From: Otis tarda
Taxonomy: Eukaryota > Chordata > Aves > Otidiformes > Otididae
NCBI GenBank assembly: GCA_026413225.1
Contig: CM048591.1
Coordinates: forward strand, 38,037,803-38,101,802
Length of the DNA: 64,000 bases
Direction of reading: 5' to 3'
The position numbers and the translations under genes are program-made. A model generated the notes under the pieces. It saw only the letters and a list, made by a program, of their open reading frames with translations, was not told where the DNA came from and did no database searches. Of the stretch, positions 16,226-64,000 are shown piece by piece. How positions within the stretch are numbered: the first letter of the stretch is position 1; every line of letters starts with the position of its first letter.

Positions 16226-16825
16226 TGATGCAGAAAATCATAGAATCATAGAATGGTTTGGGTTGGAAGGGACCTTTAAAGGTTATCTAGTCCAATCCCC
16301 CTGCAAGGAGCAGGGAGATCTTCAACTACATCAGGTTGGTCAGAGCTTCATCCAACCTGGCCTTGAATGTTTCCAGGGATGGGGCATCTACCACCTCTCT
16401 GGGCAACCTGCTCCACTCACTCCATCACAATCATTGTAAATAATTTCTTCTGTATATCCAGTCTGAATCTACCTCCATTTAGTTTAAAACCATTACCCCT
16501 TGTCCTATCACAACAGGCTCTGCTGAAGATTTTCTCCATGTCTTTGCTGTAAGCCCCCTTTAGGTACTGGTAGGCTGCAATAAGGTCTCTGCAGAGCCTC
16601 CCTTCTCCAGGCTGAACTGCCTTAACTCTCTCAGCCTGTCCTCACAGGAGAGGTGCTCCAGCCCTCTGATCATCTTTGTGGCCCTGTTCTGGACCTGCTC
16701 AAGCAGGTCCACATCGTTCTTATGTTGAGGGCTCCAGAGCTGGACGCAGTACTGCAGGTAGGGTCTCACAAGAGTGGAATGGAGGGGCAAAATCACCTCC
16801 CTCGACCTGCTTGCCATGCTTTGAA
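16226..16825 (-). mobile_element. CR1 LINE 3' fragment
   Basis: It starts with the reversed CR1 tail (AATCATAGAATCATAGAATG) followed by GGTTTGGGTTGGAAGGGACC, the canonical CR1 3' end. The minus-strand reading from 16817 contains [20 protein letters not shown], the end of CR1 ORF2. It is 5' truncated at about 16825, which is normal for CR1. Intron 18. Confidence 0.95.
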
Positions 16826-46588: not shown

Positions 46589-46852
<264 letters not shown>

Positions 46853-50265: not shown

Positions 50266-51418
50266 TGTCATAATTTAGCCCCACTCGGGACCAGACTATG
50301 CAGTCTCTCACTGCCTGCACCCTCCCAGAGAATAGGGAGAGATAGTATAACAAATAGGCTCGAGGTTTGAGATAAGGACAGGGAGAGATCCTTAAAGTTA
50401 CTGTTACAGGCAAAACAGACTCGACTTGGGGAAAACTATTTATTTATTATTAAAAGCAAAGCAGGATAATGAGAAAGAGAACAAGACAACTTCCCCTCAA
50501 CCCCTGCCTCTTCCCAGGTGCAGCATTATCTCTACCTCCTCCCTCCCTGAGTGGCACAGGAGGGAAGAGGGAATGGGGGTTATGGTCAGTTCATCACTTG
50601 TTGCTTTATGCTGCTCCTTCCTCCTCGGTGAAGAACTCCTCACATTCCTCCCCTGCTCCAGCCCCACCCAAGGGCTACAGTCCTTCATGAACTGCTCCAG
50701 CGTGCATTGTTTTTCCCACAGGGTGCAGTCCCTCCGGAATGGCTGCCCAGCGAAGGCCCTCCACAGGCCACAGCCTCCTCCAGGCATCCATTTGCCCCGG
50801 CATGGGGTCCTCCATGGGCTGCAGGTGGATCTCTGCTCCTCTATGGGCCTCCATGGGCTGCAGGGGCACAGCCGGCCTCACCATGGTCATCACCACAGGC
50901 TGCAGGGGAATCTCGGCCAGGAGCTGCATTACTGCTCCCCCTCCTTCTTCACTGACCTTGGTGTCTGCAGCCGTTCCTGTCACCAGAAATTCTTTGCAAT
51001 CATGCTCAGGCAGATGCCTCTTAGGTTCTCTTCACGTCTCATTCACATCTCATCTCCTCTCCACTTCTTGCAGCCGGGTTGGGCTGAGTTGGGCCCAGGT
51101 GGCCTCCTGGCAGGAGGCCAGAGGGTGAGGGCTGCAAGGGCTTGTGCCTCCCCCTCTCTGCCCCTGCTCAGCATCTTCACATCTTCACTTCTTTTTTTTT
51201 TTTTTTTTCCTGGTTTCTTTTTTTTCCCTGTTTTTCCCCTTCTTAAATAGGTTATCACAGAGGTGTTATCACAGAACATTCTGCTACCAATTGGCTCAGC
51301 CCTGGCCAGCAGTGGATCCACCCTAGGCCCAGCCAAGTCCACTGAACAAAGGGGAGACTTCTAGAAGCTTCTTAGGGAAACTGCCACCGTAGCCCCCTCA
51401 CTAAACAAAACCAATACA
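50266..51418 (-). mobile_element. Solo LTR of an avian endogenous retrovirus, left copy
   Basis: It runs from TGTCATAATTTAGCC to CCAATACA (TG...CA) and is flanked by the 5-bp duplication GTGGC at 50261-50265 and 51419-51423. In the minus orientation it has a TATTTAA box (reverse of 51243-51249) and an AATAAA signal (reverse, near 50440), hence the strand. The GC-rich middle gives long open frames on both strands, but they are present in both LTR copies and are not genes. No internal viral genes are present. Intron 37. Confidence 0.85.
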
Positions 51419-52219: not shown

Positions 52220-53317
52220 TGTTATTCTGGTTTTATTTAGTGAGGGGGGGCTATGGTGGCAGCTTCTGTAAGAAGCTGCTACAAGTTTCCCCTTTGTTCA
52301 GTGAACTCAGCCGGGCCTAGGGCAGACCCGCTGCTGGCCAGGGCCGAGCCAATTGGTAGCAGAATGTTCTGTGATAATGCCTCTGCGATAACGTATTTAA
52401 GAAGGAGGGGAAAAAAAAAAAAAAAAAAAAGGAGAGAAGAAGATGTGAAGACACTGAAGCCTTGCCCTCTGGCCTCCCACTGGGTGGCCATCTGGGCCTG
52501 ACCTGGCCCAGCTGCAAGAAGTGGAGAGGAGATGAGATGTGAAGAGAACCTGAGAGGCGTTTGCCTGCCTGTTGTGAAGAATTTCTTGTGAGAGGAACAG
52601 CTGCAGACACCAAGGTCAGTGAAGAAGGAAGGGGAGCAGTAATGCAGCTCCTGGGTGAGACTCCCCTGCAGCCTGTGGTGATGATCGTGGTGAGGCCGGC
52701 TGTGCCCCTGCAGCCCATGGAGGTCCATGGAGGAGCAGAGATCCACCTGCAGCCCATGGAGGACCCCATGCCGGGGCAAATGGATGCCTGGAGGAGGCTG
52801 TGGCCTGTGGAGGGCCTTCGCTGGGCAGCCATTCCGGAGGGACTGCACCCTGTGGGAAAAACAACGCACGCTGGAGCAGTTCATGAAGGACTGTAGCCCT
52901 GTGGGTGGGACTCCATGCTGGAGCAGGGGAGGAATGTGGGTTCTCCACCTGACGACGAAGCAGCAGCGTAAAACAATGTATGATGAACTGACCAGAACCC
53001 CAGTTCCCTTTTCCTCCCTGTGCCGCTCAGTGGGGGAAGGTGGTAGAGGTAATGTGAAGCCTCGGAAGAGGAAGGGATGAGGGGAGGTTGTCTCATTCTC
53101 TGTCTCATTGTCCTGCTTTGTTTTCAGTAATAAATGAATAGTTTTCCTCAAGTCGAATCTATTTTGCCCATAACGGTAACTTTTTAAGGATCTCTCCCTG
53201 TCCTTATCTCAAATATCGAGCCTTTTTTTCTTATATTATTTCTCCCTATTCTCTTGGAGGGTGGCGGGAGTGAGAGAGACTGCATAGTCTGGTCCCAGTT
53301 GGGGCTAAACTATGACA
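52220..53317 (+). mobile_element. Solo LTR of the same family, right copy, opposite orientation
   Basis: It starts TGTTATTCTGG and ends ACTATGACA. TATTTAA at 52394-52400 and AATAAA at 53129-53134 give the orientation. A poly-A tract lies at 52410-52430. Over about 250 bp in the middle it agrees with the left copy at roughly 97%. I see no target duplication (CGAGG before, GGTCC after), so one edge may be altered. The 800 bp between the two LTRs is ordinary intron. Confidence 0.85.
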
Positions 53318-56335: not shown

Positions 56336-56457
56336 ATTTGAGAAGAAGTGACTACACACTGGAAAGGGTCAGTCCAGCCTTCCAAATAGAAGTGGAGACA
56401 AGCACCAGAGGAGCTGATGATGCAGATGAGCCTTTGGAGTATGATACACGGCTGTGA
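56336..56457 (+). CDS. TRPM6: TRPM6 exon 39 (C-terminus)
   Basis: Last coding exon, phase 1 in, ending with TGA at 56455-56457; window residues 1605-1644. Acceptor CTTGCCATAG. It codes DLRRSDYTLERVSPAFQIE and an acidic, variable tail that ends in DTRL. Confidence 0.97.
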
Positions 56458-59755: not shown

Positions 59756-61239
59756 GTTTCTGTTCTTCGTGGGTGTAGAAAGAAATAATATGTTTCCAAG
59801 CACTAATGGAAACAGGTGAAAGTAACATACAGAAAATAAAGCAGTTATTTTTATTTGTAATCTCAAGGTAGTAAACAGGCATTGAGTCTATATTTATTAG
59901 ATTTCCAGATTTCCTTTATTTTAATGGTATAGTAGCATTAGTTTCTATTCTTGAAGTCAATACGCTTGCAGCAAGAATTTCTACACCTGTCCCATAAGTA
60001 AAAATTATTTTTACAGAAACAGAAAGTAGGTATTTTATTAGATGTTCTGTTGATTTATTAGATTATCATTTATCAGATGTTAAATAAACTTTGAGGGTTT
60101 TTTGAGTTGAGAGGCATGCCCAGTTCTTAGAAAACTCGGTAAATCAAATCACTGTCGCAGATTTAAGAAAAATAAATATAATGACTTTAATGTGACAGTC
60201 CTGTTTTTTACTGTAATGCTAGGTCTGTGATGTAAAAAGCCTGTATAGCCACTAATATAAACAAGGAGCTGATACAAATGAATGGTGTTCCACTGACTTG
60301 TCAAACGTGTTATTTTATATCAGCTACATTTTGCATCTACTCTCCGTTCCTAGGATGTTGATACCAGTCCTGCAAATAAAGAAATCCTATCTGGAGTGAC
60401 CCAGGCCTTCATATCAACTGTTATCACAGCAGAGTTGTCAGCCCTTTCCTTGTTGCTAGATCTTTTGCAAGATCTCTTACTGCTTTTCAGCTTTTATTTG
60501 CTGTATTTGTTATATCTTGAATTATTCCGGAAAACAGTTTGATCTCCTAATTTGTAGTAACTATTACTAGGGAAGAAAAATTTCAAACTAAAACCAAACA
60601 AAAGCTGTTTTCCTCTCTGATATTGAAGAGTGTGTAAACAGCTGCAGTGCTCTGTTCATTTGCCTATCTGGCATTAGTTCTGTTTGAGAGAGAGCAAATA
60701 AACTAGTGTTTTAAAATAACTTGTGTCCATTTAGATGTTGGTGTTCAATGGTGATAAAGTGCTGAAGAGTAAAGAAGAAAAATCAGAGAAAAGTCTGTGA
60801 CTTTGTTGCCTAAAGAAAGCCTGGCTGTGTTCGTGTCAGGGATTTAAGTAGATGGCTAAAACCTTCCATTTCTCGGGTTGTCATTGAACAAACATGATTT
60901 GGGTTTTGACACTGTGCAGGCAGTCCAGCATACCCACGGCTGGCAGAATGGAGCAGAAGGCGAAAGAGGAGGAGGAGGGAGAGGAGGAAGAGGAGAGGAG
61001 GTTGAGGCACAAAGAGCAGTTTCTGACTTCTGAGCCTGTTTCCTGTTTTTCCTGACTGAGCTCTCATCCCGCAGTGATCCTGCCAATGTCACCTTGTTTC
61101 TGTGGTCTGTAGTGTGAGGCAGGCTCTTCTAAAACATAGAGGGTTTGTGTGTACCATGCATCCCAGGTGGCTTGGATTCACAAGGAACCTGTCTCACCTG
61201 ATGAGGAAAAAAAAAGAGATGTTTCTCCTCAGTTGACCT
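59756..61239. other. Intergenic sequence after TRPM6
   Basis: No gene is seen. The one feature of note is an uninterrupted 40-bp polypurine run at 60962-61001 (GAGGAGGAGGGAGAGGAGG-type). Confidence 0.6.
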
Positions 61240-63021
61240 CTGCTATGAAATTTGAAGTATTGCCTGACCTCTGAAAATGTCTGAGCAGCAAACTCGTGTC
61301 AGATGAACTTGGACAAACTGCTCCATTAAATCAACACTGACCTTTAACCTCTCAGGTTAGTCAGACTCTGAGATCCTGGAAAATGAGAAGAATATACAAT
61401 TTCAGATAGCCTGAGCAGCTCAGATTGGTAGCTAGCCATGTATAACCATCTTCCACAATACAGGGGATGGATTTCAGCTGAGGTGACCAGTAAGCAGCAT
61501 ATAAATGCTGAGATTAAACTCAAACTATATACGTTGCCTCAAATCAAACCAGGAGCTGACCTCATCTGAACTTGCAGCAAAGTGAAAGTGTTGGATCTGA
61601 CTGAGCTCAGCTGACTGTTGGACAAAATAAAAGTAGAATTAGATTATCCCAGCCTGCACCCACCTAGGGAAGGAAATTTGAACTCTTGTGGCAACTCCCT
61701 TAAATGAGGCCTGTAGCTGAGATTAAATAGCCGTAACACACAGAAGAAGAAGAATTGACTGTGACAAGTCTCAATCTTTGAGAAGCACAAAAGGGCTGGG
61801 GTTGATCTGTGAGGAACCTTAGCAGAGTATAAAGCCAGAATATGGCCACAAAATACTGAAGAGAAAAGGGGCCTAAGACGAATCTCAGATATCTTCTGTG
61901 CATCAAATTAAGGGATTAGGGACAGGGGACATAAGCTTAGAGGTTCCCATTGTAGAGCAACAGACTAAGGAGAGCAAGGGAGGTCCAGAGTGGTCTTCAA
62001 AGATCCCATGACAGCAAATAAAAGCTGGTGATGGCCACAAATTACCCCTGTGCTACTAAGTGGATTTAAAGTTGGCCTCAAGTGACCCTATGGAAATGTG
62101 GTCTGGATTAACTTCAGATGACCTCTAGGCACCAAAGGAGGCCAAACTGACCTCAAATGATCAGTTGAGGTAACTAATTGGGATTAAGTTTGCTCTCAGA
62201 TGACTCCCATGCAGGTTAATTTGTTCTGAATTTGACTTCAGATAACCTGTGTAATGAAAAAATGGGTCAGGATGACCCTGGACAATTTATTGGGTTTTAA
62301 GCTGACCTTCAATAACCCCAGGCATCAAATGCGAGGAGCATTGACCTCAGATGACCCTCAATCAGATCATTGGATATAATTTTGTCCTCAGGCGACTCCT
62401 TTTAGCTCATGTGCTAGCCATGTTGACCTCAATTGAGCCTAGGGGCACAAGCAAGGTCCAATTGGACCTCAAGTGACCCCAATAAGTCATTAGAACTCAT
62501 GTTTACCTGAACTGACCTGTGCCACAACCATGAATGTTGACCTCATATGACCCTGCAGTGAGAGTTTAATCTCAGGTTGAACTCAGATGACCTCAGCCAG
62601 GAAACAAAGACTGTGATTGACATCTAATGACCCCTTGGCACAAAATAAGGGTCAGGTTGACCTCAAATAACAAACCAAGCAATTAATTGGGCCTCAGGTT
62701 TACCTTACATGACCTCTAGGCACTGAACAAAGGCTGCCCTGACCTCACATGAACCCTAACATGCTCTCTTGTTGACCTCAAATGAACTCTAGCTGCTTAA
62801 TTGGATCTCAAGCTGACCTCAAATAATTGCCCCTCCTCCAAATGAGAACAGTGTTGACCTTAAAGGACCTCTGTGGAGATAACTAGATGTTAAGGTGACC
62901 TTATGTGATCCTGGGCTCCAAACAAGAGCCTAGTTGACCTCAAACAACACCTTGAGTATAGCTGGGTCTCATGATGATGTCAGATGACCCCCACCACACA
63001 CAGGTTATTTTACCCTCAAGT

Positions 63022-63037
63022 TGACCTCAGATGACCT
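63022..63037 (-). promoter_or_regulatory. Perfect DR4 nuclear-receptor-type element
   Basis: TGACCTCAGATGACCT: two perfect AGGTCA half-sites on the minus strand separated by 4 bp. DR4 is the classic spacing for thyroid hormone receptor, LXR and CAR/PXR dimers with RXR. It lies within the tandem array. Binding is not shown by the sequence. Confidence 0.4.
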
Positions 63038-63634
63038 TCCTGAGTAGCTATGGTGACCTCCAGTGATCACTGTCAGGTTAACTGACTTTCATGTTAACCT
63101 CAAAAGACCCCAGGCAGGTGCTAGGATCTCATGTTCACCTCAGATAACACTTAGAGCCTCTAACTATATCTCAGGTTGATTTCAAATGACCTCTAAGAAG
63201 CAAATGCAGGCTGATGATTGACCTTAAGTGACCCCCAAATAGGTAAGTGGATCTTACTTGGTGTCAAATTATTCCAGATTGCAAAAAGCAGGCCCATTTG
63301 GCCTGAAATTACTTTTAGGTAGCTAAATGGATCTCAGGTTTACTTCAAATGACTCCTAGGCAGCACACAAGGACTTGATCCCCTTGTCAACAGGTTGCAT
63401 CTCAAGTTAACCTCAGATGACCCCTGGACAAAATATAAGGGCTGTTTTCACCTTGAGTTGATACTAAGGTAGATGTCAGATTACTCCTGTGATATCCACT
63501 GGATTTAAATTAGACTTTAAACGACCTGCTAAGCACGAAATAAAGGCTGTGATTGACCTCACATGACTCCTTGCATAGATAATTGGCTCTGAGGTTGACT
63601 TGACATGACCTCAGGTCAGGCAATGAGAGCTGAT

Positions 63635-63650
63635 TGACCTTCAATGACCT
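63635..63650 (-). promoter_or_regulatory. Second perfect DR4 element
   Basis: TGACCTTCAATGACCT: again two perfect half-sites with a 4-bp spacer. Just upstream, TGACCTCAGGTCA at about 63606-63618 is an everted pair of half-sites with a 1-bp spacer. Confidence 0.4.
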
Positions 63651-63744
63651 CTGTGCAGCTAATTGCATCTCACACTGACCTCAGATAATCTCTGTACAGC
63701 AAATGATAGTCAGGACTGTCCTCAACTCATATAAACGTAGGTTA

Positions 63745-64000
63745 GCTCGGTTTGTAAGTAGCCTCTGAAGTTCATCTAGTCCATTCTCTGCACAAAGCAG
63801 TTAAAATTAGTTGTAATCATGTTGTTCATGCCCTTTCCCAAGTGACTTTTGGGTTTTTTTCCAACAAAGTAGATTCCAGAACTTTTCTTGGCTACCTGTT
63901 CCAGTTTTGATTACTCTTGCTTCTTCCTTTAAAAAGGTTTCCATGTATCTAATTGCAATTTCCTTTGTTTCAACCTGTGTTCAGTGCACCTCTTGCACTG
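63745..64000 (-). mobile_element. Old CR1 LINE relic at the window edge
   Basis: GTTCATCTAGTCCATTCTCT near 63772, TACCTGTTCCAGTTTTGATT near 63893 and TTTAAAAAGGTTTCCATGT follow the order of a reversed, diverged CR1 3' end. It continues beyond the window. Confidence 0.6.

Follow-up and report, generated by a model that had tools for sequence, protein, structure and literature searches.

Degenerate interspersed minisatellites are built of units of 10-100 bp with hierarchical sub-repeats. The tandem array described here lies downstream of a TRPM6-type gene in a window of 64,000 nucleotides of the Otis tarda genome (the whole stretch analysed, 38037803-38101802 of contig C40, CM048591.1; host genome 1.198 Gb; feature coordinates are those of the window), and its unit contains a DR4, that is, a direct repeat of the nuclear receptor half-site AGGTCA with a 4-bp spacer. 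It resembles these minisatellites in its ~41-bp unit, its ~10-bp sub-repeat, its two linker types, its decayed ends and an internal insertion, and it differs from them in that its units stand 30% from their consensus, in that Tandem Repeats Finder did not detect it and in the DR4 carried by the unit.

Other repeats are known to hold receptor sites or homotypic motifs. About half of the human consensus DR4s lie within Alu, which carries DR2 and DR4 elements (PMC1785376); in both Alu and the present array repeat amplification has spread DR-type sites, but the Alu copies are dispersed, whereas those of the array follow one another head to tail at a single locus, and no genome-wide excess of DR4s accompanies them. 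Telomere variant repeats of the type (TCAGGG)n are bound by NR2F2/NR2C2 (PMC7691514) and are likewise tandem; receptor recruitment is known for these telomeric repeats, whose unit is 6 bp, in contrast to the interstitial DR4 unit of ~41 bp. Tandem repeats with tens of motifs for one factor can be repressed enhancers (PMC13373173), and these MORC3-restricted repeats share with the array the tens of homotypic motifs, though not the motif class; their function was shown experimentally, whereas the array is known here from its sequence alone. The avian CNM and PO41 repeats have the same unit length of 41 bp, a likeness drawn from their description only, but they form long pericentromeric or mainly subtelomeric arrays, and PO41 has 63% GC against 43% in the array (PMC3091757). 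Among the matches listed in the literature searched, there was no report of a tandem DR4 array in birds.

The array itself is real, although where the initial annotation had counted about 60 units we recognised 43 units of ~40 bp, with decayed ones beyond them. The recognisable part spans 62040..63725 on the forward strand (first and last units partial, mean spacing 39.9 bp) with the unit consensus TTGACCTCAAATGACCCCTAGGCAGCTAATTGGATCTCAGG, and it is preceded by a strongly decayed part at 61226..62039, on the same strand, that was traced with a cyclic profile. To the right, the array is split by an old insertion on the reverse strand (63729..64000, continuing, as judged by eye, to ~780 bases past the window end), which we take to be CR1-like and whose positions 63738-63903 match 16249-16415 at 61% identity (E 8e-7). 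Beyond the insertion, decayed units extend as far as ~66400 in the right flank (L032, about 848-2376), with autocorrelation peaks again at 41 and 82; given this continuation past the insertion, the element probably inserted after the array had arisen. Decay of the units is strongest toward both ends. Head-to-tail units of ~40 bp at a single locus place the array in the minisatellite size range, and Rfam gave no match at gathering scores.

The units are old and show no local homogenisation. Their divergence from the consensus, 30%, corresponds to 0.39 substitutions per site (Jukes-Cantor); near-identical units, which recent turnover would leave, are absent, the highest pairwise identity being 79% and identity being flat with distance. 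Unit similarity stays at 0.52-0.57 at separations of 1 to 12 units, without a drop with distance, indicating that the array is frozen, and this flat profile lends no support to gene conversion, which had been put forward as a keeper of the core. Two linker types are supported by blind clustering (gain 77.1, compared with a maximum of 61.4 in 30 column shuffles) and they alternate above chance (28 runs versus 21.3, P 0.02, 42 of the 43 units). A fixed A/B dimer alternation was tried and rejected, its gain of 60.8 lying below the mean of 66.9 for permuted units (maximum 95.6, 20 permutations).

The DR4 pattern of the array exceeds chance. Two perfect AGGTCA-N4-AGGTCA sites, the number that had been claimed, lie on the reverse strand at 63022..63037 and 63635..63650, and with the half-site relaxed to RGKTCA nine exact DR4s are present (starting at 61557, 62342, 62538, 62578, 62740, 62773, 63022, 63219 and 63635, the second of them occupying 62342..62357 on the reverse strand), compared with 0.005 expected from 200 Markov shuffles. 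When spacings of 0-8 were scanned, RGKTCA direct repeats occurred in the array only with the 4-bp spacer, and the remaining 61 kb of the window contained no DR4. The RGKTCA half-sites are also strongly oriented, 46 one way and 3 the opposite way. Inside the unit runs a ~10-bp sub-repeat with which the DR4 spacing is consistent.

We read the array as an ancient minisatellite, frozen and eroding and possibly bound incidentally, with a probability of roughly 0.66. The decayed ends, the old insertion, the ~10-bp sub-repeat, the lack of homogenisation and an ordinary GC-to-AT decay at the G/C positions within half-sites all favour a minisatellite, so that, of the two readings the initial annotation had left open, anatomy favours this one and a receptor platform is not the preferred account. 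In the proposed history, an ancestral element of ~10 bp resembling GACCTCAaaT would have been duplicated into the ~41-bp unit, and about 4 kb of tandem copies would then have grown from this unit by slippage or unequal exchange. The half-sites, 10 bp apart in the consensus, would be neighbouring sub-repeats, and the DR4 geometry would arise because of this adjacency and not from selection for a receptor dimer. Homogenisation appears to have ceased long ago, since when the units have drifted independently, most of all at the ends, and the old CR1-like element has come to lie inside the array. Some of the DR4s and half-sites that survive may be occupied by receptors in open chromatin, even if such binding is not what preserves the array. 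This reading suggests how a sub-repeat period as short as 10 bp may produce properly spaced receptor sites by mere chance, which calls for caution where enhancers are called from motifs.

The chief competing account is a maintained receptor platform, in which the DR4s would recruit RXR heterodimers (LXR, TR, CAR/PXR) and the half-sites ROR/ERR-type monomers, and TRPM6 or the gene next to it would be controlled by the array as an enhancer, a silencer or a sink for receptors. The 46 to 3 orientation bias together with the nine exact DR4s fits such a platform, as does the high-affinity binding of type II receptors to half-sites as well as to DR4s, recorded in PMC6555819. It is a possible function that we nevertheless judge unlikely, given how the core has decayed. 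The GC-to-AT loss per GC base is 0.254 in the half-sites and 0.288 elsewhere, indicating that the G/C bases a receptor requires are lost unhindered. Of all its bases, half-site 1 keeps the first G worst, and it keeps best the first A, a position at which receptors are tolerant. The N4 spacer is kept at 74%, against 84% in half-site 1 and nearly like half-site 2 (76%), and in the right third of the array the spacer, at 74%, even stands above the half-sites, at 72%. Furthermore, preservation of one half-site does not go with preservation of the other in the same unit (r 0.02), and units with both half-sites perfect number 5 against 3.1 expected (P 0.16), so that joint preservation of the pair is not apparent.

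Several observations point the other way and weigh against plain neutral decay. The claim that the core is the best-kept part holds with respect to the linker, with 80% of half-site bases kept against 63%; the gap of 0.171 lies beyond all of 120 uniform-rate simulations (maximum 0.100), which assumed one spectrum and two linker types on a star tree, and splitting the units by linker type lifts linker identity to 64-69% at most. With respect to the spacer the claim does not hold in the same way: an equal divergence of core and spacer had been named as the result that would speak against a function, and the values found are nearly equal, yet the simulations lean in the opposite direction, the half-sites exceeding the DR4 spacer by 0.057 against a maximum of 0.043 in the 120 runs (bootstrap interval of the difference -0.014 to 0.138, rank test P 0.31). 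The 16-bp block of half-sites and spacer is contiguous and is kept beyond column permutation (P 0.001). Half-site A/T bases change from AT to GC at 0.058 per cell, compared with 0.208 elsewhere, and indels avoid the core (19 versus 74, a per-column ratio of 0.36, where 60 indel simulations gave a ratio of at least 0.64, though with fewer total indels than in the real array). In half-site 2 the base that varies most is the first one, where receptors tolerate change and where 92% of copies have a pyrimidine on this strand, and perfect copies of half-site 1 number 18 against 13.7 expected (P 0.015, all 40 gap-free rows of 42). The platform account can claim the preservation of the core above linker and spacer, and its shortage of indels, as support.

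Since the simulations never reached the observed gap between half-sites and linker, either constraint or an ancestral diversity of linkers is needed. If the linkers were already more diverse at freezing, the same gap could arise neutrally, and a neutral account has to assume that they had diversified by then; such an account does not by itself explain why the 16-bp block is better kept, and this is the only feature it leaves over. The evidence on selection of the core is therefore mixed, and we describe the locus as a real minisatellite, old and decaying, with a DR4 in its unit, for which a maintained receptor platform is a possible but not favoured role. One candidate sign of whole-site preservation was discarded: an early count of 18 perfect copies of half-site 1 against 11.65 expected (0 of 2000 shuffles) was inflated by gapped rows, and the excess was gone after 7 rows below 60% identity were dropped (17 versus 16.4, P 0.46, 33 rows).

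The contiguity of the block TTGACCTCAAATGACC, spacer included, and the fact that no columns are kept better than the A/T columns of its half-sites (90-92%, compared with 69-78% for GC columns) would also suit preservation of the 16 bp by some other DNA-binding protein or by an effect on mutation rate, with the likeness to receptor sites incidental. The word TGACCTCA, present in 15 copies where exact TGACGTCA has 0, might hint at such a protein; it is one base from the cAMP response element, but this likeness is weak and we find the explanation quite unlikely. A repressor that is drawn to the repeated sites of a single factor and closes the array, and whose loss would turn it into an enhancer, as with MORC3-restricted motif clusters, is very unlikely. 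Such tandem repeats hold up to 61 homotypic motifs, and repression through SPI motifs appears above 15 copies (PMC13373173); the 46 half-sites of the array surpass this number as a count only, in a different motif class. The cases described there have ETS/SPI, AP-1 or SP/KLF motifs in mammals, with no receptor half-sites, and the majority of restricted repeats lack gene regulation.

To place the array in its genome, we compared it with DR4s elsewhere. The perfect DR4 word occurs 257 times genome-wide and the reversed word, used as a single control, 589 times, so DR4s are not enriched. Of the 255 perfect DR4s that lie elsewhere, sixteen were inspected with the model and cyclic profile and showed single weak matches at most and no array, and the same was true of six further loci matching RGGTTACTANAGGTCA and TTGACCTCARATGACC. 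The exact core TTGACCTCARATGACC has four genomic places, two of them in the TRPM6-downstream array and the other two single sites. A few pattern searches did not find the array unit at many genomic loci. As a separate observation, TGACCTCCCTTGACCT recurs at at least 14 perfect DR4 places on contigs C1-C3 among the matches listed, a sign that part of the genome's perfect DR4s may come from a single dispersed repeat.

A two-unit pattern search of the same genome gave one match, on contig C6 near 8.049 Mb, which is not above chance, the reversed control giving 15. This match borders a young tandem array of 27.7 copies of 71 bp with 94% matches (C6:8049091-8051061; L035, 7092-9062), whose 27 units of ~71 bp hold two DR4s each. 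The unit carries GGGTTACTtsAGGTCA and GGGTTACTAGAGGTCA, L035 contains GGGTTACTTGAGGTCA 14 times, GGGTTACTTCAGGTCA 14 times and GGGTTACTAGAGGTCA 25 times, and the older left edge of the array contains GGGTCATCTGAGGTCA. We take RGGTTACTANAGGTCA, which equals the GGGTTACTAGAGGTCA of this array, to be an LXR element; 26 of its 31 genome-wide copies lie in the C6 array and its left edge, and the reversed control has 6. The spacer of an LXR DR4 matrix reported in PMC3295715 begins with CT, and so does that of the C6 array. Scored with the profile of the window array, the C6 array gives a match of 29 bits, and when the C6 unit was compared with 300 shuffled-linker versions the similarity outside the DR4s was marginal (P 0.043). 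That this genome repeatedly forms tandem DR4 arrays, which would arise, serve for a time as platforms or sinks of receptors and then erode, is improbable in our estimate; under such a history the better-kept core on the TRPM6 side would be a trace of past use. If the preservation of the core does reflect selection, or if the C6 array is bound by LXR/RXR, the arrays would present a homotypic receptor element in naturally graded doses, on which one could test whether tandem repeats create motif clusters that respond like switches.

Upstream of the window array lies a gene with an alpha-kinase exon of TRPM6/TRPM7 type at 46700..46840 on the forward strand (match to structure 1ia9, E 6.5e-23), for which the paralogue name TRPM6 is our assumption. 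Its probable last coding exon, at 56336..56457 on the same strand, was located through a short match, with 2 mismatches, to what we presume to be the C-terminal word of the protein, and the stop codon at 56455-56457 places the start of the array 4769 bp downstream. In viral contigs the two-unit pattern gave 15 matches, one each, and 14 of the 15 share a 45-base match (L001-L014), perhaps one phage gene unrelated to the array. Between the two exons, the window also holds an inverted pair of sequences of ~1.1 kb each (50304-51397 and 52246-53277, 82% identical), possibly two opposite-facing copies of one repeat element.
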